Assembly (NCBI GenBank): GCA_002385675.1
Contig: DGDY01000275.1
Span: 2,029-21,880 of the forward strand
Source: Anaerolineales bacterium UBA3940
GTDB taxonomy: Bacteria; Chloroflexota; Anaerolineae; Aggregatilineales; UBA3940
Direction: 5' to 3'
DNA length: 19,852 bases
Shown: one piece after another, positions 1,747 to 13,088 of the stretch
Layout of the letters: each line of letters begins with the position of its first letter
Position numbering within the stretch: position 1 is the stretch's first letter
The notes under the pieces: model-generated
Databases searched by the model: none
What the model was told of the DNA's origin: nothing
The model's input: only the letters and a program-made list of their open reading frames with translations
Translations under genes and position numbers: made by a program

Positions 1747-2520
1747 ATGGTGCTAGACGCTCTGCTCGGCGGCCTGCCCGCCGACCGGCCCGTGACGGGC
1801 GTGCAGGTGGGCATCCACTGGACGATTGTCGGGCTGGCGGAAGGGCCCGGCGGCGAGCCTGCTCGCTGGGGCATTGCCAAGACGCTGCTGCCTGTGGAAG
1901 GGCCGGGGCACAGCCACGAGCACGAGGAAGGCTCTGTCATTGAGGCGGGGCGGCTGCATACGTACTCCGCGCACGAGCTTATCGGGCTGATCCGCGACGG
2001 CTCCGGGCCGGAGCGAAGCATCGGCTGGGCGGCGCTGAACGCGCTCTACGCGCCGGATCGCAGCCGATGTGTGGAGCTCAACGCGCGGGACTTTCTGCTG
2101 GAGCATGGCCGCGGGAAGCGTATTGCGGTGATCGGGCACTTCCCGTTTGTCGAGAAGCTGCGCGGGGCGGCGCAGGATGTGTGGGTGCTGGAGCTGAACC
2201 CTGCGCCGGGCGACCTGCCCGCCTCGGCGGCGGAGGACGTGCTGCCGCAGGCGGATATCGTCGCTGTGACCTCGCTGACGCTGCTGAACGACACATTCGA
2301 GCCGCTTGCGAAGCTGTGGCGGCCCGATGCAACCGTGCTGCTGCTCGGCCCCTCGACGCCGTTTGCCCCGGTGCTGTTCGAGATGGGCGTGGATTACCTG
2401 TCCGGGACGGAGATCGTTGATCCGGAGGTTGCGAGCCGGCACGTGGGGCAGGGCGCATGCTTCAAGCAGATGGAGGGTGTGCAGCTTTTGACAATGGCGA
2501 AGGACGGTGCGCCGGCGTGA
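1747..2520 (+). CDS. DUF4213/DUF364 putative heavy-metal chelation protein
   Basis: A 257-residue soluble protein matching the two-domain DUF4213 plus DUF364 architecture, described in domain databases as a putative heavy-metal chelation domain with a Rossmann-like C-terminal half. Landmarks are an N-terminal segment with GVQVGIHWTIVGLAEG, the IAVIGHFPFVEKL strand-loop, ADIVAVTSLTLLNDT, and the signature GPSTPFAPVLFEMGVDYLSG followed by VDPE. The ATG at 1747 is preferred over the longer ORF beginning at 1696 because AGGAG lies 6 nt upstream and a promoter candidate ends at 1709. No signal peptide is visible. Its exact role is unknown. The family often occurs with metal uptake or anaerobic metabolism genes, and here it faces a DtxR-type iron regulator, which fits metal homeostasis. 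Confidence 0.8.
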   Translation: MVLDALLGGLPADRPVTGVQVGIHWTIVGLAEGPGGEPARWGIAKTLLPVEGPGHSHEHEEGSVIEAGRLHTYSAHELIGLIRDGSGPERSIGWAALNALYAPDRSRCVELNARDFLLEHGRGKRIAVIGHFPFVEKLRGAAQDVWVLELNPAPGDLPASAAEDVLPQADIVAVTSLTLLNDTFEPLAKLWRPDATVLLLGPSTPFAPVLFEMGVDYLSGTEIVDPEVASRHVGQGACFKQMEGVQLLTMAKDGAPA

Positions 2521-2573
2521 GCCGGAGCTCTACTGGCGGCACGTTCTACTTCAACTGGGACAGGAGACAAGCC

Positions 2574-3524
2574 TTGAAACGCCAACTGCGAGGCTGGATA
2601 ACGGGAGTTGTGATACTGGCGCTGGCAGCGCTGGCCTGCAACGCGCCGGGCCTGCGCGGGGGCGCGGCACTGCCCCAGCCGGAGGCGACGCCTGCCACGC
2701 CGATTATCGACCCGACGTTGCTCACGCCCGCCCCGACAGAGGAGGTGGAGAGCACGCCCTCACCAACCCAGCCCGCCGAGGCGATCCCCTCGCCGACGGG
2801 CTGCGGGTACTGGGCGGAGTTCGTGGATGATGTGACCGTGCCCGACGGATCGCAGTTCGCGCCGGGCGAACCGTTCGAGAAGACGTGGCGCTTCCGCAAT
2901 AACGGCTGCCTGGACTGGCCCGAGGGTACGCAGATGATCTTCTGGGGCGGCGACCAGATGGGCGGGCCGGACGCGGTAGACGTGCCGCCCACCACCTTCA
3001 ATGAGCTGGTGGACATCACCGTGCCGCTGACAGCGCCGCGCGAGCCCGGTAGCTACACCGGCTACTGGCAGATCCGCGCGCCGGACGGTGCGGGCGTCGG
3101 CCCGTATGTGTACGTGCAGATCGAGGTGGTCGAGGCGAACGGCGACGCCCAGCCGGGAGGTGGTGACACGCCGGGTGGAGCCGGTATCGCGCTGGCGAGC
3201 ACGTGGGTCAACCAGGACGTGCAGGATGGCGATATTGCGCGCTTGCAGGCGCGGGTCGTGGGCGACCGCATCGTGGTGCATCGCTGGGACCAGTGCGGCA
3301 CGTCGCTCTGCGACCGGGGCGAGCAGTCTACATCGGTGGCGGACGCAAGCGACAACGTGCTGACGCTAACGTGGCGCATCGAGGGGCAGGGGGAACTTGC
3401 CCGCACGGAGACGCTGCAGGCGGCGCTGCTGCTCGATAAGCGTCTGCAGGTAACGGGTACGGTTAACTACGACGACCCCGCGCAGGCGGACACGACCTTC
3501 ACCGAGTATTTTGTGCAGGAGTAG
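2574..3524 (+). CDS. Secreted lipoprotein with NBR1-type Ig-like domain
   Basis: A 316-residue probable surface lipoprotein. The start chosen is TTG at 2574, preceded by AGGAG at 7 nt; it gives a classic signal peptide: basic KRQLR, a hydrophobic stretch to about residue 21, then ALAC with the lipidated Cys at 22. A Pro/Thr/Glu-rich linker follows to about residue 70. Residues about 75-185 form an Ig-like fold of the NBR1 central-domain type (FEKTWRFRNNGCLDWPEGT, then a beta-sandwich ending GPYVYVQIEV). The C-terminal 110 residues (LASTWVNQD, then VVHRWDQCGTSLCDRGEQ) look like a second beta-rich domain with a possible Cys pair. A GTG at 2517 overlaps the preceding stop and is in frame, so a longer coupled form cannot be excluded. 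Ligand and function are unknown. Confidence 0.8.
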   Translation: MKRQLRGWITGVVILALAALACNAPGLRGGAALPQPEATPATPIIDPTLLTPAPTEEVESTPSPTQPAEAIPSPTGCGYWAEFVDDVTVPDGSQFAPGEPFEKTWRFRNNGCLDWPEGTQMIFWGGDQMGGPDAVDVPPTTFNELVDITVPLTAPREPGSYTGYWQIRAPDGAGVGPYVYVQIEVVEANGDAQPGGGDTPGGAGIALASTWVNQDVQDGDIARLQARVVGDRIVVHRWDQCGTSLCDRGEQSTSVADASDNVLTLTWRIEGQGELARTETLQAALLLDKRLQVTGTVNYDDPAQADTTFTEYFVQE

Positions 3525-3645: not shown

Positions 3646-4752
3646 TTACGCCTCGATGGCCTCCGCCTCCAGCCGTCCGAACTGGTAGTAAGCCGCGCAG
3701 GCGCCCTCACTGGAAACCATCGGCGCGCCGAGCGGCGTGCGCGGGGTGCACTGCTTGCCGAACGCCGGGCACTGGTTGGGCTTGAGCCGTCCTTGCAGCA
3801 CCAGCCCTGCCTGGCACAGCGGCGACTCCTCCACCTCGATATCCCCGACTGCGAAGCGGACCTCAGCATCGAACTCCGCATACTCCGGGCGCAGACGCCA
3901 ACCGGACTGAGGGATGAAGCCGACGCCGCGCCACTGTCGGTCGCAGGGCTCAAAGACTTCATTGATGACAGCCTGCGCCGCGACGTTGCCGGTGGGTATA
4001 ACGAGCCGCTCGTAAGCGTTCTCGATCTCCGCGCGCCCGGCCTCAAGCTGGCGCACCGTGCGCAGAATGCCGCGGGCGAGATCGACCGGCTCAAACCCGG
4101 TGACGACAATCGGCACGTGGAACTTTTCCACAAGCGGCTGGTACTCCCATGTGCCCATCACCGTGCAGACGTGACCGGCAGCAAGGAAGGCCTGGATGCG
4201 GTTGTCGGGCGAGCTGAGAAGCGCGTCGATGGCGGGCGGCACGCGGACGTGCGACACCAGCATTGAGAAGTTTTGGATGCCCTGCCGGCGGGCCTGCTGA
4301 ACGGCCATCGCGTTGGCGGGGGCGGTCGTCTCGAAGCCGACGGCGAAGAACACGACCTCCTTGTCCGGGTTTTCGCGGGCAAGCTTCAGGCAGTCAAGCG
4401 GCGAGTATACGACACGCACGTCACCGCCCTCGGACTTGACCTGGAACAGGTCCTTCTCGGAGCCGGGCACGCGCAGCATGTCGCCGAAGGATGTGAAGAT
4501 CACATTGGGTTGAGCAGCAATGGCAAGCGCCCGGTCGATAAGCTCCAGCGGGGTGACGCAGACCGGGCAGCCGGGCCCGTGGACGAGTTCAAGCTCTGGG
4601 GGGAGCAGGCGGTCAAAGCCGTGGCGAATGATGCTGTGCGTCTGGCCGCCGCAGATCTCCATGATCACCCAGGGGCGGGTCACGGTGCTGCGGATCTCCT
4701 CCAGCAGGACGGCGACCTTCTCCGCATCGCGGTACTCGGTCAGGTACTTCAT
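3646..4752 (-). CDS. hypD: [NiFe]-hydrogenase maturation protein HypD
   Basis: A 368-residue iron-sulfur scaffold protein, full length for the family. HypD works with HypC to assemble the Fe(CN)2CO moiety of the [NiFe] active site in the cytoplasm. Visible signatures are EICGGQTH (C34), GPGCPVC (C62 and C65), the GFETTAP segment, [33 protein letters not shown], and the C-terminal cysteine cluster [21 protein letters not shown] and [10 protein letters not shown] that binds the [4Fe-4S] cluster. The start ATG at 4752 lies 2 nt past the hypC stop with GGCGAGGAG overlapping the end of hypC, indicating tight translational coupling. It is the last gene of the operon; no hypE or hypF follows. Confidence 0.97.
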
Positions 4753-4754
4753 GG

Positions 4755-5018
4755 TTACTCCTCGCCGGGTAGCTCAACTCCCAGCTCTTCGCCAAGCACG
4801 TCGATCTCTCGGAGCAGGCTCAGTGTTTCGAGCGCCTCCTGCTCGTCGATGATGTTGAGCGCAAAGCCGACGTGGATCAGTGTGTAGTCGCCGACCTTCG
4901 CCTGCGGGACGTAGGCCAGGCAGGCTTCCTTCGTCACGCCGCCAAAGTCCACAACGCCCATCTGGAGGCCGTCGCGCTCAAAGATCTCGATAATCTTGCC
5001 GGGGACTCCCAGGCACAT
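4755..5018 (-). CDS. hypC: [NiFe]-hydrogenase maturation chaperone HypC/HybG/HupF family
   Basis: An 87-residue HypC chaperone that carries the Fe(CN)2CO precursor with HypD and delivers it to the hydrogenase large subunit. The family requires Cys at position 2 after Met removal, so the start is the ATG at 5018 (MCLGVPGKI) and not the upstream in-frame ATG at 5042, which would bury Cys2 behind eight residues. GAGGAG lies 7 nt before the chosen start. H49 in the [10 protein letters not shown] motif corresponds to the conserved HypC histidine. The acidic C-terminus ([10 protein letters not shown]) is slightly extended. It begins 20 nt after hypB ends and stops 2 nt before hypD. Confidence 0.96.
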
Positions 5019-5038
5019 GGTACAACTCCTCTCAGTGG

Positions 5039-5722
5039 TCATTTGGCCTGCGCAACTGTCGCGCGCTTCTCCCGCACACGCTGGCGGAGCCAGTCAAACC
5101 AGGCATCGAGCCCCTCGCCGGTGCGGCATGAAACGGGGAAGAAGGTCACGCCCTCGTTCAGCGCCTCCACACCCCGGCGGAAGTATTCGACGTCGAAATC
5201 CTGCAGCGAGAGGTAGTCGATCTTGTTCAGGAGCAGCACATCCGCACCCTTGTACATCGCCGGGTACTTGTAGGGCTTGTCGTCGCCTTCGGGCACGCTG
5301 GCAATGACGATGCGGGCATCGGTCCCCAGATCGAAACCGGCAGGGCAGATGAGATTGCCAATGTTTTCGACGATGAGCAGGTCGATGCCGGAAAGATCAA
5401 GCCGGGGCATGACGCTTGCCATCATGTTGGCGTCGAGGTGGCAGTTGCCGCCCGTGTTGATCAACTCGACCTGAATGCCCTGCGTGGCGATCTTCTCGAC
5501 ATCGACGGGGACCACGTCGCCGTCAACCGCGGCGATGCGCATCTCACCCTTCAATGCCTCGACGGTGCGCAGGATCAGGCTGGTCTTACCGGCGCCGGGT
5601 GAGGCCATGATGTTGATCGCGAACACGCCCGCATCGGCAAGCTGCTGGCGGATATCCTGCGCGATGCGGTCGTTCGCGCTGAGAATCTTCTCTTCGACGT
5701 TAATCTTCCGGGTTGTCGTCAT
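5039..5722 (-). CDS. hypB: Hydrogenase nickel-insertion GTPase HypB
   Basis: A 227-residue SIMIBI-class GTPase that, with HypA, inserts nickel into the hydrogenase precursor. The Walker A motif is SPGAGKTS (residues 41-48), the G-domain metal-site residues are C94 and H95 in GGNCHLDA and C126 in ENIGNLICPA, and the guanine-specificity motif is NKID (166-169). It lacks the N-terminal Cys motif and the His-rich stretch found in nickel-storing HypB forms, so it is the short, non-storage type. Its ATG at 5722 overlaps the hypA end by 23 nt with GGAG just upstream, so the two are probably translated together. Some HypB/HypA pairs also serve urease; no urease gene is in view. Confidence 0.97.
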   Translation of the reverse strand: MTTTRKINVEEKILSANDRIAQDIRQQLADAGVFAINIMASPGAGKTSLILRTVEALKGEMRIAAVDGDVVPVDVEKIATQGIQVELINTGGNCHLDANMMASVMPRLDLSGIDLLIVENIGNLICPAGFDLGTDARIVIASVPEGDDKPYKYPAMYKGADVLLLNKIDYLSLQDFDVEYFRRGVEALNEGVTFFPVSCRTGEGLDAWFDWLRQRVREKRATVAQAK

Positions 5723-6074
5723 GATCTCCGGGTCCTTTGATCTCGATACTCTCTAGCTGAAACTGGTCGCCATCGGACATGTGTACGCGGACCGAGCCGC
5801 AGGACGGGCACGCGCCGTCAAACTCCCGGAACAGGAATTCGACACCGCACCCCTCACACCTTAGCTTGCCGGGGATGTACGTGAAGTGAAGTTCTGCCTG
5901 CTCGGCAATGGTGCCCTCGGCGATCATTCCCCAGTAGAACTGGAGCGAGGAGTCCACAATGGATGAAAACTCGCCGACGACGATGTTGAGGCGGGTGACC
6001 GCCTCCGCGCCGGCGTCCTCGGCGTGGCGAAGCGTGAGCGAGAGCAGTTGTTCGGCGATCCCCAGTTCGTGCAT
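5700..6074 (-). CDS. hypA: Hydrogenase nickel metallochaperone HypA
   Basis: A 124-residue nickel chaperone, first gene of the hypABCD operon. The N-terminal MHE supplies the nickel-binding site (H2, with E3). The zinc-binding loop has two CxxC pairs, C73/C76 and C89/C92. FSSIVDSSLQFYWG matches the conserved core of the family. The C-terminal tail is acidic and extended (GPGDHDDNPED) and overlaps the start of hypB. The ATG at 6074 has AGGA 8 nt upstream. A TATGAT -10-like element lies about 30 nt before the start. Confidence 0.96.
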   Translation of the reverse strand: MHELGIAEQLLSLTLRHAEDAGAEAVTRLNIVVGEFSSIVDSSLQFYWGMIAEGTIAEQAELHFTYIPGKLRCEGCGVEFLFREFDGACPSCGSVRVHMSDGDQFQLESIEIKGPGDHDDNPED

Positions 6075-6525: not shown

Positions 6526-7314
6526 ATGAACGGCGATCATTTTTCCCGGTTTGAGGCGCGCATCCAGCGGCTGATCGAGGGTGGCTTTGCCCGGCTGTTC
6601 GCGGGCCGGCTGCACCCGCGTGAAGTGGCGATACGGCTGGCGCGCGCCATGGAAGATGGAGCCGTACAGACGGCGGAGGGTGTTATGCGGGCGCCGGACG
6701 TCTACCTCGTCCGGCTACACCCTCAGGATCACCGCGCGATCATCGAGAGCGGCGAGGACATCACAACGCGGCTAGCCGAGGAACTGGTCGAGCTGGCGCG
6801 AGCGTCGGGGCTGCAACTGGCGCAGCACCCGGAGGTGCGTCTGCTAGCCGACCGGGGCGTGCCGCCTCACGAGGTGGAGATCACCGCGCAGCACGTGCGC
6901 CCTAACCGCGAAACCACGCAGGCGATGCCGCTCAACCGCTTGCAGGACGTGATGCAGGAGGCCCGGCCACGGCAAGCTATGTTGATCGTCAACGGTGACC
7001 GCTACGTGACGCTCGACAAGCCGGTGATTAACCTCGGGCGTCAGCGCGACAACGACGTGATCATCGACGACCCGACGGTTTCCCGGCACCACGCCCAGAT
7101 CCGGCTGCGCTTCGGAAGCTACGTCCTGTTTGATCTGGGCAGCCGGGGCGGAACGACGGTCAACGGGTATCCGATCCACGAGAAAGTCCTGCAGCCCGGC
7201 GACGTCATCGGGCTGGCGCGCTCGAGCACCTGCGTTTATGTTGAGGACGGCGTCGCAGACGATCTCGATGATCCGATGGACGATACCGAAGCTTATCCGC
7301 CGCTTCGCCCGTGA
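6526..7314 (+). CDS. fhaA: FhaA-like protein: DUF3662 (FhaA N-terminal) plus FHA domain
   Basis: A 262-residue cytoplasmic protein. Residues 5-120 match DUF3662, the FhaA N-terminal domain (FSRFEARIQRLIEGGFARLF, then LHPREVAIRLARAMEDGAV). Residues about 165-240 are a forkhead-associated phosphothreonine-binding domain with GR at 171-172, SRHHAQI starting at 186 and TTVNG ending at 214. In actinobacteria FhaA (FipA) binds phosphorylated MviN and FtsZ and links Ser/Thr kinase signalling to peptidoglycan synthesis. The central linker is much shorter than in the mycobacterial protein, and the tail is acidic. It is first in a run of fhaA, fhaB, MTA phosphorylase, SEDS and PBP genes. A -10 element 8 nt before the ATG suggests leaderless translation. 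Its partners are unknown; no kinase gene is in the window. Confidence 0.9.
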   Translation: MNGDHFSRFEARIQRLIEGGFARLFAGRLHPREVAIRLARAMEDGAVQTAEGVMRAPDVYLVRLHPQDHRAIIESGEDITTRLAEELVELARASGLQLAQHPEVRLLADRGVPPHEVEITAQHVRPNRETTQAMPLNRLQDVMQEARPRQAMLIVNGDRYVTLDKPVINLGRQRDNDVIIDDPTVSRHHAQIRLRFGSYVLFDLGSRGGTTVNGYPIHEKVLQPGDVIGLARSSTCVYVEDGVADDLDDPMDDTEAYPPLRP

Positions 7315-7328
7315 GGTAATGTCTCCCC

Positions 7329-7769
7329 ATGTCCCCAGAACTCGTCATCCTGCTGCTACGCGTGGCGATTGCCCTCGTTCTGTACGCCTTCCTCGCGGGG
7401 GTGTTCTATTACCTGCGGCGTGATGTGCAGGTTGCCAGCGAGCAGATCGAGGAAACGCAGCTCCTGAGCGGGCGTCTGGTGATCGTCCGCTGTGATGACG
7501 GTGTGCCGGTTGAGGTCGGGCGAGAGTTCCGCCTGCAGCCGATCACGGTGGTGGGGCGTGGCCCGACGAGCACGATCATCGTGCCGGACAGCTTCGTCAG
7601 CACGGAGCACGCACGCATCGTGGCCCGGCGCGGGCAGTGGTGGCTGGACGACCTCAACAGCCGCAACGGCACATACCTGAACGGCGTACCCCTCTCGGGG
7701 CCAATTGTGCTGTCGTCGGGTGATATTATCAGCATCGGGCGCGTTGAGTTTAGATTCGAGGTTGGCTGA
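7329..7769 (+). CDS. fhaB: FhaB-like membrane-anchored FHA domain protein
   Basis: A 146-residue protein with an N-terminal transmembrane helix (about residues 5-28, LVILLLRVAIALVLYAFLAG), a basic YYLRRD stop-transfer end, a short linker, and a C-terminal FHA domain (about residues 70-145). FHA core residues visible are GRGPTSTIIVPD, VSTEHARI and LNSRNGTYLNG. This matches FhaB (FipB) of actinobacteria in size and layout, where it sits between fhaA and the phosphatase/rodA genes. It begins 14 nt after fhaA ends; GAGGT at the fhaA stop may serve as a distant ribosome binding site. It likely recruits a phosphorylated partner to the membrane near the SEDS/PBP pair; that role is inferred from context. 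Confidence 0.88.
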   Translation: MSPELVILLLRVAIALVLYAFLAGVFYYLRRDVQVASEQIEETQLLSGRLVIVRCDDGVPVEVGREFRLQPITVVGRGPTSTIIVPDSFVSTEHARIVARRGQWWLDDLNSRNGTYLNGVPLSGPIVLSSGDIISIGRVEFRFEVG

Positions 7770-7804: not shown

Positions 7805-8683
7805 ATGGACAGCGACCGCGACGACGTCCGCATTGCAGTGATCGGCGGATCCGGCCTGTACAATATGCCCCAGCTTACCGACGTCGTGGAGCGCGAAATT
7901 TCAACGCCCTTTGGCCCGCCCTCTGATTCGATCATCGTCGGTACGCTGAACGGCGTACGTGTTGCGTTCCTGCCGCGCCACGGGCGAGGGCACATCTACC
8001 TGCCGCACGAGGTGCCGTACCGGGCCAACATCTATGCCCTGAAGTCGCTCGGCGTGCGGGAAGTGATCGCCGTGAGCGCGTGCGGCTCGCTGAGGGAGGA
8101 TTTTTCGCCGGGGCACGTCGTCATCCCCGACCAGCTATTTGACTGGACGAAGGGCCGCCGCGAGACGTCGTTTTTCGGCGATGGGCTGGCAGCGCACGTC
8201 GGCGTCGAGGAGCCGTTCTGTCGCGAGTTGAGCGGTATGTTGATTGAATGCGTTGAGGAAGCGGGCGGTATCGTCCACGAGGGTGGGGCGTTCGTGACGA
8301 TTGAGGGGCCACGCTTCAGCACGAAGGCCGAGAGCAATGTCTTTCGCGCGCTGGGGATGTCCATCATCGGCATGACGACCTCGCCTGAAGCGTTCCTCGC
8401 CCGCGAGGCGGAGATGTGCTACGCCGTGATGGCGCACGTCACCGATTACGACGTGTGGCACGAGACGGAGCAGGCGGTGACGGTCGATCAGGTCGTGCGC
8501 ATCCTGCAGGATAACATCGCGCTGGCGCAGGAGGCCCTCGTGCGGGTGGTGGCCCGGCTCGCCGAGCGCACACCGACCTGCAAGTGCGACCACGCCCTCG
8601 AGTCGGCCATCATCACCGACCGGCGCAAAGTCTCACCCGAGGTCGCCAAGCGGCTGGGCCTCATCGTCGGCAAGTACCTGTAA
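7805..8683 (+). CDS. mtnP: S-methyl-5'-thioadenosine phosphorylase (PNP/MTAP family)
   Basis: A 292-residue nucleoside phosphorylase that cleaves 5'-methylthioadenosine with phosphate to adenine and methylthioribose-1-phosphate in methionine salvage. Motifs are IGGSGLY (residues 13-19, phosphate loop), PRHGRGH (57-63), IPDQLFDWTKGR, EGPRFSTKAES, GMTTSPEAFLAREAEMCYA and TDYD (213-216), with the Asp context expected for 6-amino purine recognition. A C-terminal CxC (C259/C261) resembles the disulfide motif of thermostable MTAPs. A CAGGAG ribosome binding site lies about 7 nt before the ATG. It is 35 nt after fhaB and 35 nt before the SEDS gene. It sits where actinobacterial clusters carry a PP2C phosphatase and has no obvious functional link to the cell-wall genes. 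Guanosine/inosine-type specificity is less likely. Confidence 0.9.
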   Translation: MDSDRDDVRIAVIGGSGLYNMPQLTDVVEREISTPFGPPSDSIIVGTLNGVRVAFLPRHGRGHIYLPHEVPYRANIYALKSLGVREVIAVSACGSLREDFSPGHVVIPDQLFDWTKGRRETSFFGDGLAAHVGVEEPFCRELSGMLIECVEEAGGIVHEGGAFVTIEGPRFSTKAESNVFRALGMSIIGMTTSPEAFLAREAEMCYAVMAHVTDYDVWHETEQAVTVDQVVRILQDNIALAQEALVRVVARLAERTPTCKCDHALESAIITDRRKVSPEVAKRLGLIVGKYL

Positions 8684-8718: not shown

Positions 8719-10071
8719 ATGTTTGCTGATACCGCTCGTCCGTCGCCGGAGCTGGTGAGCTACCGGGAGCGGATGCTGCTGCTGGCCGCAGCAGTGTTCG
8801 TTGTGCTGAACCGTGTGCTGCTCGTGCTGGTGCGCGGGGATGCGTGGTACAGCCTGTGGCCGGTCGGCGTGTGGCTGGCATGCACCGTCGGAATGCACGT
8901 TGTGCTGAACCGCGTGCTGCCCCACCGCGACCCGCTCATCACGCCGCTGGTGATGCTACTTGGCGGGTGGGGGCTGACGCTCGTCAGCCGGCTGGCCCCG
9001 CCCTTCGAGGTGAGGCAAACCATCTGGCTAGCGATTTCGGTGGTCGCTTTGCTGGCGGTTGTGGTGCTGCTGCCGCCGCACCTCCGCGTGCTGAAGCGCT
9101 ACCGCTACACGTGGCTGCTGGCGGGCGTGGTCCTGCTCGCGGCGACGCTGATCTTCGGCGTGAACCCGTCCGGTGACGCGTTCGCGCCGCGCCTCTGGCT
9201 CGGCTTCCGCGTGATCTTCTTCCAGCCCAGCGAGATCCTCAAGCTGCTGCTCATCGTGTTCCTGGCGAGTTACCTTGCCGAGAAGCGTGAGATCATCGTA
9301 ACGACGCGGGTGAAGATCGGGCGCTGGGAACTGCCGCCGCCGTCTTACCTGGCGCCGATGCTGCTGATGTGGGGCTTCATCATGGTGCTGCTGATCTGGC
9401 AGCGCGACCTCGGCACCGCGTCGCTGTTCTTCCTCATCTTCCTGGCCATGCTGTACGTCTCGACCGGGCAGATCGGGTATGTGGTCGGCGGGCTGGCGCT
9501 GCTGGGAGCGGCGGGCGTGGTGGGCTACCTCCTGTTTGATGTGGTGCGGCTCCGCGTCGATACGTGGATCAACCCCTGGCCGGAGGCGTCGGACCGCGCA
9601 TTCCAGATCGTTCAGTCGCTGCTGGCGTTTGCAGCGGGCGGTGTGTTCGGGCGGGGTGTCGGGCTGGGCGCGCCGACGTTCATCCCGGTGGTGCACTCGG
9701 ACTTCGTATTTGCGGCCATCGCGGAGGAATGGGGCCTGCTCGGGGCGCTGGGCGTGGTGCTGTGCCTGGCTGTGCTCGTGCTGCGCGCGCTGCGTGCTGC
9801 CATCAGCGCAAGCCGCTGGCCGTTCCACTCGCTGCTGGCGGCGGGGATTGGCGTGTCGCTGGGCGTACAGTCCCTGCTGATCATGGCAGGGGTGCTCAAG
9901 CTCGCGCCGCTGACAGGCGTGACTCTGCCATTTGTCAGCTACGGCGGAAGCTCGCTGCTGTCGAGCTTCATTATGATCGGCCTGCTGCTGCGCATCACCG
10001 ATGCCGAGGCGCAGGCGAGCGCGGCGGGCGGAACCTTGCAGGAATCGCTGAACCGGAACTTCATGCCATGA
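8719..10071 (+). CDS. rodA: SEDS-family peptidoglycan glycosyltransferase (FtsW/RodA/SpoVE)
   Basis: A 450-residue integral membrane protein with about ten hydrophobic helices. SEDS proteins polymerise lipid II into glycan strands together with a cognate class B PBP. Key family motifs are present: FQPSE (168-172), QRDLGTA (228-234), DTWINPW before QIVQSLLAFAAGG, HSDFVFAAIAEEWG with the conserved Asp at 328 (the position of the catalytic acid in RodA/FtsW), and PFVSYGGSSLLSS near 404-416. It therefore appears competent. The start at 8719 has no clear ribosome binding site. Its stop overlaps the PBP-homologue start (ATGA, 10068-10071), a sign of translational coupling. Synteny with fhaA/fhaB favours a RodA role; FtsW cannot be excluded from sequence alone. 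Confidence 0.93.
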   Translation: MFADTARPSPELVSYRERMLLLAAAVFVVLNRVLLVLVRGDAWYSLWPVGVWLACTVGMHVVLNRVLPHRDPLITPLVMLLGGWGLTLVSRLAPPFEVRQTIWLAISVVALLAVVVLLPPHLRVLKRYRYTWLLAGVVLLAATLIFGVNPSGDAFAPRLWLGFRVIFFQPSEILKLLLIVFLASYLAEKREIIVTTRVKIGRWELPPPSYLAPMLLMWGFIMVLLIWQRDLGTASLFFLIFLAMLYVSTGQIGYVVGGLALLGAAGVVGYLLFDVVRLRVDTWINPWPEASDRAFQIVQSLLAFAAGGVFGRGVGLGAPTFIPVVHSDFVFAAIAEEWGLLGALGVVLCLAVLVLRALRAAISASRWPFHSLLAAGIGVSLGVQSLLIMAGVLKLAPLTGVTLPFVSYGGSSLLSSFIMIGLLLRITDAEAQASAAGGTLQESLNRNFMP

Positions 10072-11465
10072 ACCGATCGCTCAGGAGACTCGCGGCGGCG
10101 ATGCTGGCTGCCTTTGCCATCGTAGCGCTCACGCTCGGGTACTGGGGGCTCGTGCGCAGCGAGTCGCTTCTTGCCCGTGAGGACAACCCGCGCCGGATCC
10201 TTGACGAGCAGCGGGTGCGGCGGGGGACGATCTACGACCGCAATGGCAGGGTGCTCGCCGAGACGGTTGTCAACCCCGACACCGGGCTGGCATCGCGCGA
10301 GTATGTGTCACCCAGCGTCGCGCCGGTGGTCGGCTACTACAGCCTGCGTTTCGGTGTTGGCGGGGTCGAGGCGGCGCAGGATGACTTCCTGCGGGGCGTG
10401 GGCCTGCTCGACGCGCGGCAGGAACTCGTGCGCGATCTACTGCATGAGCCTCCGGTGGGCGGCGATGTGCGGCTGACCATCGATCTGGATGTCCAGGGGA
10501 CGGCGGCCCGCTTGCTGGAGGGGCAGGCGGGTGCGGTTGTCGTGCTGTCTGTGCCAGAAGGCGAAGTGCTGGCGCTGGCCAGCGCGCCCAGCTTCGACCC
10601 GAACGAGCTTAGCGACCGCTGGGATGAGCTGATTGCCGACCCCGACGCACCGCTTCTGAACCGGGCGACGCAGGGACTTTACCAGCCGGGAGAAATCCTG
10701 CAGAGCGTGATTCTGGGGGCGGCGCTCAACAGCGGCAGTGTGAGCGTAGACGACGAGTGGTTTGGCCCGCTCTCGGCCTCGGTTGACAACCTGATTCTGC
10801 CGTGTGCGGGCGACTCGCTCGGGGTGGAGACCATCGGGGATGCGTTCATTGCGGCCTGCCCGGCGCCGTTTGACCGGATGGCGACCGACCTGGGTGAGGA
10901 TCGCGTGCTCGCGGCGCTGCGCGATTTCGGGCTGCTCAGCGCACCGGCGCTCGGCATACCGACTGACGCTGTAACCGAGGAAGAGGTGATCGCCGCCGAC
11001 GACCCCGGCAGACTGGCCGTGGGGCAGGGCGGGCTGACCGTTTCCCCGTTGCAAATGGCGCTCGTCGCCGCCGCTTATGCCGATCACGGGCGTATGCCGC
11101 CTGTGCAACTCATCGAGGCCCGCCGCGCCCCCGATGGACCGTGGCAGGAGGTTGAGGCGAGCGGCAACCCGCGCGGGACGCTCAGCCGGGCAAGCGCAGA
11201 GGCGATGGTGGAGCTTATGGGTCGGGCGGCGGACGAGGGCGTGGCGTCTGCGGCGGCGGTGGGCCAGAGCCGGGTGTACGGCCATGCCGGGCTGGCGCTC
11301 TCCGGGCCTGAGGCGACGACCAACGCCTGGTTTATCGGTTTCATGCGCGCCGGGGATGGCCGCGCGGTTGCGGCAGCGGTATTGCTCGAAAACAGCGCCG
11401 ACGTGAGCCGGGCCTCCCACATTGGCGGGGAGGTGTTACGGAGCGCGCTGAACGCCATCCGATGA
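10068..11465 (+). CDS. Class B penicillin-binding-protein homologue lacking all catalytic motifs (pseudo-transpeptidase)
   Basis: A 465-residue bitopic membrane protein: one N-terminal helix (residues about 8-28), the class B hinge motif RRGTIYDRNGRVLAE (51-65), APVVGYYSLRFG (85-96), GGDVRLTIDLDVQ, and a transpeptidase fold with VVVLSVPEGEVLALASAPSF, GQGGLTVSPLQMA and AWFIGF. It resembles actinobacterial PbpA. The three active-site motifs are all replaced: SxxK in PGSTFK becomes E209-I-L-Q212, SxN becomes A263-C-P265, and KTG becomes H406-A-G408. The reading frame is intact, so this is not a decaying pseudogene by appearance. The start ATG at 10068 overlaps the SEDS stop (ATGA). An ORF open to 9564 is an out-of-frame run through the SEDS gene. 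Likely role, inferred: a structural activator of the SEDS partner without cross-linking activity. Confidence 0.85.
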   Translation: MNRSLRRLAAAMLAAFAIVALTLGYWGLVRSESLLAREDNPRRILDEQRVRRGTIYDRNGRVLAETVVNPDTGLASREYVSPSVAPVVGYYSLRFGVGGVEAAQDDFLRGVGLLDARQELVRDLLHEPPVGGDVRLTIDLDVQGTAARLLEGQAGAVVVLSVPEGEVLALASAPSFDPNELSDRWDELIADPDAPLLNRATQGLYQPGEILQSVILGAALNSGSVSVDDEWFGPLSASVDNLILPCAGDSLGVETIGDAFIAACPAPFDRMATDLGEDRVLAALRDFGLLSAPALGIPTDAVTEEEVIAADDPGRLAVGQGGLTVSPLQMALVAAAYADHGRMPPVQLIEARRAPDGPWQEVEASGNPRGTLSRASAEAMVELMGRAADEGVASAAAVGQSRVYGHAGLALSGPEATTNAWFIGFMRAGDGRAVAAAVLLENSADVSRASHIGGEVLRSALNAIR

Positions 11466-11471
11466 TGAAAC

Positions 11472-11503
11472 AACCCCCTTCCGATTGCCAGAAGGGGGTT
11501 TTG
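11472..11503 (+). terminator. Intrinsic, probably bidirectional, terminator after the PBP homologue
   Basis: A 10-bp perfect stem (AACCCCCTTC / GAAGGGGGTT) with a 9-nt loop is followed by TTTTG on the plus strand, 6 nt after the stop codon. On the minus strand the tail is TTGTTTC, so it can also stop the convergent CpXC gene transcript. Confidence 0.88.
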
Positions 11504-11534: not shown

Positions 11535-13088
11535 TCAGACGAGGGTTTGCACTTCCATCCGGATGGCGTCAAGGCGCTCGGCGACCGGTGTATTACCCGC
11601 CTCGCGGATCTGTGCCGACAGCTCCTGCATGAGTTCGACCAGTTCCGGGGAGAGCTCGTCGCTGCGCTCGCGCAGGATCTGGCGGGCCTCGTCCATCGAC
11701 TGTGCGGACAGAAGATCGTTGATCAGGCGGATCTCAGGAGGCGCGGCCTGCTTGATAAGCTCGGTGGCTTCCGCCTCGACGGCCTCAAGGCGCGCGGCCT
11801 GTCGCTCCTGCCCGGCTTCATGAAGCTGCTTGGTGACAGCACGCAGCGTGGCCAGGAACTGCGGCGTCAGCAGCCCCGGCTGCTCGCGCAGCAGCGCCCG
11901 TGCCTGCTCGTCCGACTCGGCCTGCAGCAGAAGCTCGATCAACTGGACCGAGGTTGACTGCTCGAGGAGAGACAGGACACGGTCGCGGATATCCTTGAGC
12001 CTGGTGGAGCGGTCGAGCTGGCCGTTCTGCCGTGCCAGCTCAAGCTCGCTCTGCAGGACGGACATGAAGGTGTCATTGATCCCCCGGCTGTTCTGCAGAA
12101 TGGCTTCGTCAAGGTTGTCCGCGCTGACCAGCTTATTGAGCGTCTGGCGCGCCTGCTCATAGGCCGCCTGGGTCTGGCGCCGGTACTCGTTGCCGACCTC
12201 CTGCAGAAGCGCCCGCGCCTGCTTAAGCTGCTCGGCCCGCTCGCCCTCTGCCTGCTCGATGCGGTCTGTCAGTATCTCGAAGGTGAGGTAGTCAAGCAGC
12301 GGCGCGCCGAGTGCGGCGAGCGCCTCCAACTTGGGCTGGTTGCCGGCGGCGTTGACCACCAGATCGACAAACTTCTCCCGCGTGATCTCGCTGCCCAGCG
12401 CGCGAAGTTCCTCGTTGGCCTCGGCGATGGCGTCTTCCCGGGCCTTAAGCTCGCGCCCGGCCTCGGTCGTTTCCATCAGTCGGCTGCGGATGTTAAGCAG
12501 GCGGAGCGACGTCCGGGCCTGGCCTGCCTGGCTGGCCTGCTGGGCGGCGACGCTGAGAAGCTGGAGGAAGGTGGCATCGACCAGGTCGAGGTTCTCCTCC
12601 ATCAGGCGGTTTGCTTCCTCGGTGTTGCTGGCGGTGGCAAGCCTGTTGATGAGATCGACCTGGCGTTGCTGCGTGTCGATCATCTCGCGCGTAATGCCCT
12701 CCGCCTCAAGAACCGTATCTATAAGCCCCTGCAGGGTCAGCGGGGTGCCGGGCTGGAGCAGGTAGCCCCTTGGCGCGTTCTCGGGCAGGGAGCGCATGAC
12801 GGTGTTGGTCAAAGTGCCGATGAGGCGCTCTCGATCCTCCTTGCCCATGTTGAGCTCCATCGGCACGTATACGAGGGCGAGTTGCTTCTCCGGGTCATGG
12901 TACATGATCGGTATGCTGGCCATGCCCTGGAAGCCGCAGTGCGGGCAGGAAACGAGGTTTATGCGCCCGCTGATCAGTCTCTCCTTGGCGGTAGGGTCGA
13001 CACCAACATCAATAATCTGCTCGAGAATGGCACGAAAAGGCTGCCTGCAGTTGGGGCAGCTAATAGTCTGCTGTATTGGTCTAGCCAT
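11535..13088 (-). CDS. CpXC-domain protein with C-terminal tandem helical repeats
   Basis: A 517-residue soluble protein. Residues 9-95 match the CpXC domain: two zinc-ribbon-like Cys pairs, C11/C14 (CPNC) and C48/C51 (CPHC), followed by an all-beta stretch (ASIPIMYHDPEKQLALVYVP). From about residue 140 to the end the protein is nearly all helical, with five diverged copies of a 65-95-residue unit starting near residues 146, 242, 317, 383 and 455. The unit reads roughly L-I-x-x-L-L-x-A, acidic turn, E-A-x-x-x-L, then F-x-x-x-L, A-G-Q and L-x-x-I-R. No signal peptide or membrane segment is seen. AAGGA lies 6 nt before the ATG. It follows the histidine kinase by 108 nt and converges on the PBP homologue. 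Its function is unknown; the helical part suggests a protein-interaction scaffold. Confidence 0.82.
   Translation of the reverse strand: MARPIQQTISCPNCRQPFRAILEQIIDVGVDPTAKERLISGRINLVSCPHCGFQGMASIPIMYHDPEKQLALVYVPMELNMGKEDRERLIGTLTNTVMRSLPENAPRGYLLQPGTPLTLQGLIDTVLEAEGITREMIDTQQRQVDLINRLATASNTEEANRLMEENLDLVDATFLQLLSVAAQQASQAGQARTSLRLLNIRSRLMETTEAGRELKAREDAIAEANEELRALGSEITREKFVDLVVNAAGNQPKLEALAALGAPLLDYLTFEILTDRIEQAEGERAEQLKQARALLQEVGNEYRRQTQAAYEQARQTLNKLVSADNLDEAILQNSRGINDTFMSVLQSELELARQNGQLDRSTRLKDIRDRVLSLLEQSTSVQLIELLLQAESDEQARALLREQPGLLTPQFLATLRAVTKQLHEAGQERQAARLEAVEAEATELIKQAAPPEIRLINDLLSAQSMDEARQILRERSDELSPELVELMQELSAQIREAGNTPVAERLDAIRMEVQTLV

Follow-up and report, generated by a model that had tools for sequence, protein, structure and literature searches.

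What becomes of a class B penicillin-binding protein (bPBP) once every one of its catalytic motifs is gone? The question is raised by a gene in a 19,852-nucleotide stretch from Anaerolineales bacterium UBA3940 (Chloroflexota; contig DGDY01000275.1, positions 2,029 to 21,880 of the forward strand); this whole stretch is called the window below, and coordinates refer to it unless a locus is named. Overlapping the end of a SEDS (RodA/FtsW family) glycosyltransferase gene lies a frame encoding a PbpA-type bPBP in which SxxK, SxN and KTG read EILQ, ACP and HAG (Table 1). A first-pass annotation of the DNA had proposed a dedicated pseudo-transpeptidase that activates the polymerase, with cross-linking done elsewhere or absent. 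Our analysis indicates that the loss is shared by a large clade, and that the protein is likely retained to activate and scaffold its SEDS polymerase without any catalysis of its own.

Pfam matched the product of the gene to PF00905 (1.1e-25) and to PF21922 (PBP_dimer_2, 6.1e-10). Its AlphaFold2 (AF2) model (pLDDT 92.0, pTM 0.89) had M. tuberculosis PbpA (3un7) as top Foldseek match, and the transpeptidase fold was retained in the Foldseek and VIA comparisons. A HMMER alignment placed the STFK, SCN and KTG motifs of M. tuberculosis PbpA on EILQ, ACP and HAG, respectively. The membrane helix, PBP_dimer_2 domain and transpeptidase fold of the PbpA subfamily were all found and the three D,D-transpeptidase motifs were all lacking; the protein is thus a bPBP homologue and, judged by its motifs, not a D,D-transpeptidase. 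The first-pass annotation had been right on these points, in naming a PbpA-type homologue, in locating the three degenerate motifs, in describing an open frame (10068-11465) whose ATGA (10068-10071) overlaps the SEDS stop by four bases, and in finding HSDF, FQPSE (9220-9234) and SYGGSS (9937-9954) retained in the SEDS partner. Near-identical database copies of the pseudo-PBP fell into clusters at 99% identity, P0002 (seven sequences) and P0003 (three sequences); P0004 is a relative at 79% identity.

The protein database search gave 1170 matches at E 1e-3, and among the 120 of them listed, 119 lacked the motifs and one (P0107) retained them. We then aligned 405 rows, made up of 284 loci (identical aligned sequences removed) and 121 proteins including the window's own, six of the protein rows duplicating a locus row at >97% identity. 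At the aligned positions of SxxK, SxN/SxD and K[TS]G, 334 rows had none of the motifs, 71 had all three, and no row was mixed. The 334 include locus L295, which aligned over its N-terminal part only and by eye retains KTG, with the segment from SxxK to SxN gone and a low-complexity junction in its place; this PbpA-type frame (L295:1028-2167, minus strand, with GKTGTA) groups with the intact L115 and may represent an independent loss or a misassembly. Since 333 further rows share the window protein's loss, while 79 of 83 other PBP loci (described below) show the motifs, chance is excluded as its cause.

The annotation had allowed that a serine, lysine and KTG might lie elsewhere in the active site. 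Scanning the 334 inactive rows for the motif patterns revealed no displaced motif at the site, and SxN or SxD stood at its aligned site in 0/334. The scan matches that did occur (GK[TS]G in P0037 and P0053, [PAST]GSxxK in P0058) lie off-site, at residues 152 and 70, and a S[CSVILY]N-xx-F/Y string was present in 15/334 rows, its positions not being mapped. We therefore rejected the idea that the motifs have moved within the protein.

Intact orthologues in close relatives would have pointed to decay in a single strain. The nearest relatives with genome DNA belong to the order of genome G001 (the family of G296), with up to 55% identity. This order was searched across 154 genomes and 130 loci from 130 genomes were read, a few of them partial (such as L292) or interrupted by a stop codon (L217). 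Every one of the 130 was inactive, and a further fragment, L146, had also lost the SxN and KTG positions. For the class, 396 genomes were sampled and 90 loci read (L111-L140, L295-L354), a non-random choice made up of upper entries of the list and a further 20 picks from partial matches. These gave 77 inactive rows (truncated forms and L295 included), eight intact loci, four repeats of inactive loci from the order above and elsewhere in the set, and one locus without an open reading frame. For the rest of this sample, reading covered the genomes that also belong to the order just described. Intact lineages within the same class are L115, L316, L324, L329, L337, L342, L345 and L347, as well as L008 (G008) and L107 (G012), so that inactive forms are common in the class, by their sequences, alongside intact ones. 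Among the matches listed, inactive loci carried the titles Anaerolineae, Anaerolinea, Bellilinea, Anaerolineaceae, Thermoflexales and Promineifilum, the class name being taken from such titles. A contig scan with one narrow pattern, which is no census, included many intact Firmicutes and Actinobacteria among the matches listed.

Trees were built with the motif columns taken out beforehand. In FastTree (378 rows) the inactive rows formed one side of a branch, requiring one change, and in IQ-TREE (84 chosen rows) their grouping had an SH-aLRT support of 99, again with one change, compared with about 26 when the labels were shuffled (0/500 shuffles as low). The intact rows closest to the inactive clade were L115, P0107 and L347; together with L316 and L031 these Chloroflexota PbpA proteins are orthologues of the window protein, the closest intact ones on the tree, and differ from it in keeping all three motifs. 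The best reading of these sequences is the simplest, a single motif loss within the Chloroflexota (Anaerolineae by record titles), though two losses are also possible.

Selection on the gene was estimated as omega (dN/dS, Nei-Gojobori) in 41 independent pairs of 70-98% identity, three of which were saturated; several dS values exceed 1, which makes the estimates rough, and they cover clade relatives rather than the window gene, whose nearest relative with DNA is 55% identical. Omega ranged from 0.037 to 0.363 (median 0.18) across the 28 inactive pairs for which dS was finite, and from 0.045 to 0.202 (median 0.07) across the 10 intact pairs. The transpeptidase part alone gave a like pattern, reaching 0.43 in inactive pairs. 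Sequence comparison thus places the inactive clade under purifying selection that is real but relaxed, as omega exceeds that of the intact pairs.

Divergence is uneven along the protein. At equal identity over residues 20-133, identity in the transpeptidase part was 7-15 points lower in inactive than in intact pairs in 6/6 bins (for example 0.345 against 0.464 at an N-terminal identity of 0.4-0.5), a comparison weakened by the non-independence of the pairs and by an intact set that covers more phyla. As judged from these identities, sequence drift is quicker in the transpeptidase domain than in the membrane-proximal part, where N40, R42, R52, G53, R77, G89, G96 and E101 are near-invariant in the inactive clade, as are C246 and C264 further on. 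Twenty truncated loci (L295-L314) have no counterpart of residues 241-255, while their first ~210 residues are almost complete, and in many of them the SxxK site reads like DLAR. Seventeen of these (L296-L305 and L308-L314) have lost the SxN region, often with PVGDLAR for SxxK, occur as separate frames of 367-511 aa or as SEDS fusions of 891-982 aa, and form one group on the N-terminal tree; L306 and L307 look like a separate erosion.

We scored a SEDS gene as adjacent when it lay upstream on the same strand, using stop-to-stop frames and allowing overlap. Among 214 inactive loci, 193 were paired or fused with SEDS (143 adjacent upstream and 50 as a single SEDS-PBP frame of 792-982 codons), and seven had too short a flank. 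Of 70 intact loci, 58 were SEDS-adjacent, three fused, eight without SEDS and one with a short flank. The three intact fusions (L017-L019, Dehalococcoidia) keep the motifs, which makes fusion and inactivation separate events. The AF2 model of a natural inactive fusion, L003 (891 residues; pLDDT 94.3, pTM 0.88), folded as SEDS plus PBP, and its VIA rows were PBPs only, covering model residues 453-891. Where the SEDS partners of inactive PBPs were readable, the aspartate of HSDF/HTDF was present in 192/192, xQP[SA]E in 189/189 and an unchanged SYGGSS in 189/192. In E. coli RodA the corresponding residue, Asp262 within HTDF, is required for activity (PMC10449877). The annotation's proposal of a dedicated pseudo-transpeptidase is supported by its own suggested check: the motif loss is conserved as a character of the clade, and omega in relatives is below 1. 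The SEDS partner retains the catalytic residues and in many loci is joined to the dead PBP in one frame.

Where, then, would cross-links be made? Searched with PF00905, two sets of 12 and 9 related genomes returned 78 and 69 matches, 4-10 per genome. We read 83 PBP loci (30/78, 30/69 and 23 from the search for relatives), a set of the better matches which is biased toward intact PBPs and in which some genes appear under two ids. All three motifs occurred in order in 79/83; the other four were L400 and L401 (themselves inactive pseudo-PBPs), L150 (a fragment at the C-terminal end of the query) and L396 (in-frame stop). Each of the 21 genomes had at least two intact PBP loci, among them FtsI-type (EPGSxxK, SLN) and PBP2-type (PPGSxFK, SCN or SCD) proteins, with no FtsI-type locus among those read for G406 and G296. 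YkuD (L,D-transpeptidase) matches were present in 12/12 genomes searched. From these relatives we infer the PBP complement of the window's own genome. As related genomes carry intact transpeptidases at other loci, cross-linking elsewhere stands as the better-fitting half of the original alternative, and absent cross-linking as the poorer.

We propose that a PbpA-type bPBP lost SxxK, SxN and KTG in a Chloroflexota ancestor and persisted as the partner of its SEDS glycan polymerase. It would be unable to acylate penicillin or to cross-link, and covalent penicillin binding by the window protein is predicted to be negative. By analogy with known pairs, its membrane helix and pedestal-like domain would bind the SEDS polymerase and switch it on, and cross-linking of that glycan would fall to FtsI-type, PBP2-type or class A PBPs or to L,D-transpeptidases. 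In E. coli, RodA-PBP2 and FtsW-FtsI likewise combine a SEDS polymerase with a bPBP that activates it via its pedestal, although in these pairs the PBP is a cross-linking enzyme as well. SEDS proteins are known to be activated by their bPBP partners, by way of the pedestal and extracellular loop 4 in one model (PMC8078798), and RodA is activated by the opening of PBP2 (PMC10257715). In the M. tuberculosis RodA-PbpA pair, by contrast with the window protein, PbpA keeps SxxK, SxN and KTG and, by the structure titles (3lo7, 3un7), was solved as beta-lactam acyl-enzymes.

That a pseudo-PBP could activate its polymerase is suggested by the precedent of engineered dead bPBPs. Dead PBP2B (S309A) sustains division in B. 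subtilis given PBP3 (PMC5656894; PMC8078798), and dead SpoVD (S311A) of C. difficile partly sustains asymmetric division and requires its SEDS partner (PMC12713402). In these cases a non-catalytic bPBP fully or partly supports its SEDS partner while another bPBP gains importance; they are laboratory point mutants, whereas the window type has lost three motifs naturally and is fixed in a clade. The accessible part of PMC6207328 has nothing on a dead PBP2. Within the literature on bPBPs and on Chloroflexota PBPs that was searched, with most subscription papers outside its scope, we found no naturally inactive bPBP and thus no earlier case of a naturally fixed pseudo-bPBP. Extending the proposal, we think it probable, though with somewhat less assurance than the activator role itself, that the two jobs of a bPBP have been permanently split here. 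One Anaerolineae order and further lineages would keep only the activating and scaffolding SEDS subunit, often fused, with no cross-linker or beta-lactam target of its own predicted in the complex, and some lineages would be dismantling the dead domain.

Several observations weigh against this account. Fourteen of the 214 inactive loci have no SEDS gene nearby despite sufficient flank. The gene is not universal in the nearest order, as 24/154 genomes show no usable orthologue (19 with nothing above the level of other PBPs, four with fragments only, and G156 with a weak match containing an in-frame stop). The tree from N-terminal columns requires three changes (two without L295) with weak support, nests the intact L347 weakly among the inactive rows and puts the truncated, KTG-keeping L295 next to the intact sister lineage. 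Inactive rows also evolve faster, and this can pull them together on a tree. Omega, as given above, is higher in inactive than in intact pairs. Nor is the precedent uniform, since the second bPBP of C. difficile aids dead SpoVD without catalysis of its own, and dead SpoVD fails in cortex synthesis (PMC12713402).

The excess of omega over that of intact relatives might suggest a decaying gene, a frameshift or an assembly error. Fixation across a supported clade, copies at 99% identity, purifying selection in relatives and fusion to SEDS speak against this, and we rejected it in favour of a conserved inactive clade, leaving it a negligible probability. An explanation in which Gln212, Cys264 and His406 run other chemistry in the same cleft is very improbable. 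The substitutions are not random (weighted, Gln212 ~71%, His406 ~70%, Cys264 near 100% and Pro265 98%), but the glutamine site varies among Q, E, Y and L and the histidine site among H, Q, Y and F across the inactive clade, neither being kept in truncated lineages, and this variation makes the new active site a weak candidate. Cysteine is already the middle residue of SxN in 63% of intact rows, and Cys246 is equally fixed. On both counts a structural disulfide is likelier than new chemistry; the Cys246-Cys264 pair probably forms one, as in M. tuberculosis PbpA.

Of the explanations that accept a functional, non-catalytic protein, one holds that the SEDS-pseudo-PBP pair makes a polymer other than cross-linked peptidoglycan and so needs no transpeptidase. 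The pair would be free to specialise, since each of the 12 genomes searched has, besides separate intact PBPs, one or two further full-length SEDS matches (2-4 SEDS matches per genome, including two fragments in G001 and one in G296). This would be compatible with an activator role, but the partners keep the SEDS motifs at the frequencies given above and the FhaA/FhaB neighbourhood is common to many intact PbpA loci, and we consider it distinctly unlikely. Less far-fetched, though still unlikely, is another regulatory role, in which the protein restrains SEDS, or its empty cleft binds stem peptides or recruits an intact PBP. Where the transpeptidase domain has not been truncated, it is maintained with omega far below 1, which argues that it does something beyond supplying a pedestal, and second bPBPs working beside a dead one are known from B. 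subtilis and C. difficile (PMC5656894, PMC12713402). However, the sublineages in which the SxN region and some of the domain have disappeared still keep the N-terminal part, so that cleft binding is not essential everywhere, and the accepted role for a cognate bPBP is that of an activator (PMC10257715, PMC8078798, PMC12713402).

If the pseudo-PBP is indeed an activator and scaffold, activation of SEDS by a bPBP as a function standing on its own, so far argued from engineered mutants, becomes directly testable with a natural, clade-wide case. The natural fusions would provide single-chain synthases predicted to lack a transpeptidase, and the series from intact through motif-less to truncated forms reveals the parts of a bPBP that remain necessary after catalysis is lost. 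In a genome, a PF00905 match should not be taken as evidence for a penicillin target or for cross-linking.

Table 1. Coordinates of the SEDS gene, the pseudo-PBP gene with its protein features, and the conserved upstream neighbours in the window.
Feature	Position	Strand	Basis
FhaA-like protein (FhaA_N and FHA), conserved upstream neighbour	6526..7314	+	Pfam
FhaB-like FHA protein, conserved upstream neighbour	7329..7769	+	Pfam
S-methyl-5'-thioadenosine phosphorylase (MTAP)	7805..8683	+	upstream of the pair
SEDS (RodA/FtsW family) glycosyltransferase, 450 aa	8719..10071	+	PF01098 3.4e-71
HSDF with catalytic Asp (corresponding to Asp262 of E. coli RodA)	9694..9705	+	alignment; PMC10449877
Pseudo-transpeptidase, PbpA type (class B PBP), 465 aa	10068..11465	+	Pfam PF00905 and PF21922, AF2, Foldseek
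N-terminal membrane helix, residues 2-29	10071..10154	+	AF2 secondary structure; membrane position inferred
PBP_dimer_2 domain (membrane-proximal, pedestal-like), residues 52-133	10221..10466	+	Pfam PF21922
Inactive transpeptidase domain, residues 155-458	10530..11441	+	Pfam PF00905; fold kept in model
Degenerate SxxK, EILQ	10692..10703	+	alignment
Cys246	10803..10805	+	near-invariant pair with Cys264 (10857-10859); 99-100% in inactive clade
Degenerate SxN, ACP	10854..10862	+	alignment
Degenerate KTG, HAG	11283..11291	+	alignment

In actinobacteria rodA and pbpA cluster with pknB. Twelve inactive loci had enough flank for comparison of their neighbourhood, and FhaA plus FhaB lay upstream in 9/12 and MTAP in 11/12. 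The FHA genes were also found near many intact PbpA loci, and MTAP beside the intact L008; MTAP is probably not a working part of the SEDS-PBP pair. In genome G260 (L300, L355; 5.35 Mb main contig) there were only two SEDS matches, one lying some 5 kb away from a PBP of the FtsI type, the other adjoining a truncated pseudo-PBP, and the pseudo-PBP pair may have replaced RodA there.

Directly past the pseudo-PBP stop, the sequence at 11472-11503 resembles an intrinsic terminator by eye, with an inverted repeat (CCCCCTT ... AAGGGGG) and T residues after it. Elsewhere the window encodes a protein (2457-3524, plus strand) whose Ig-like domain belongs to the next-to-BRCA1 type (PF16158), a hydrogenase maturation cluster on the minus strand (3646-6074) with HypD, HypC, a CobW/HypB/UreG-family protein and HypA by Pfam, and a protein (11535-13088, minus strand) whose N-terminal CpXC domain is followed by a long part lacking a Pfam match.

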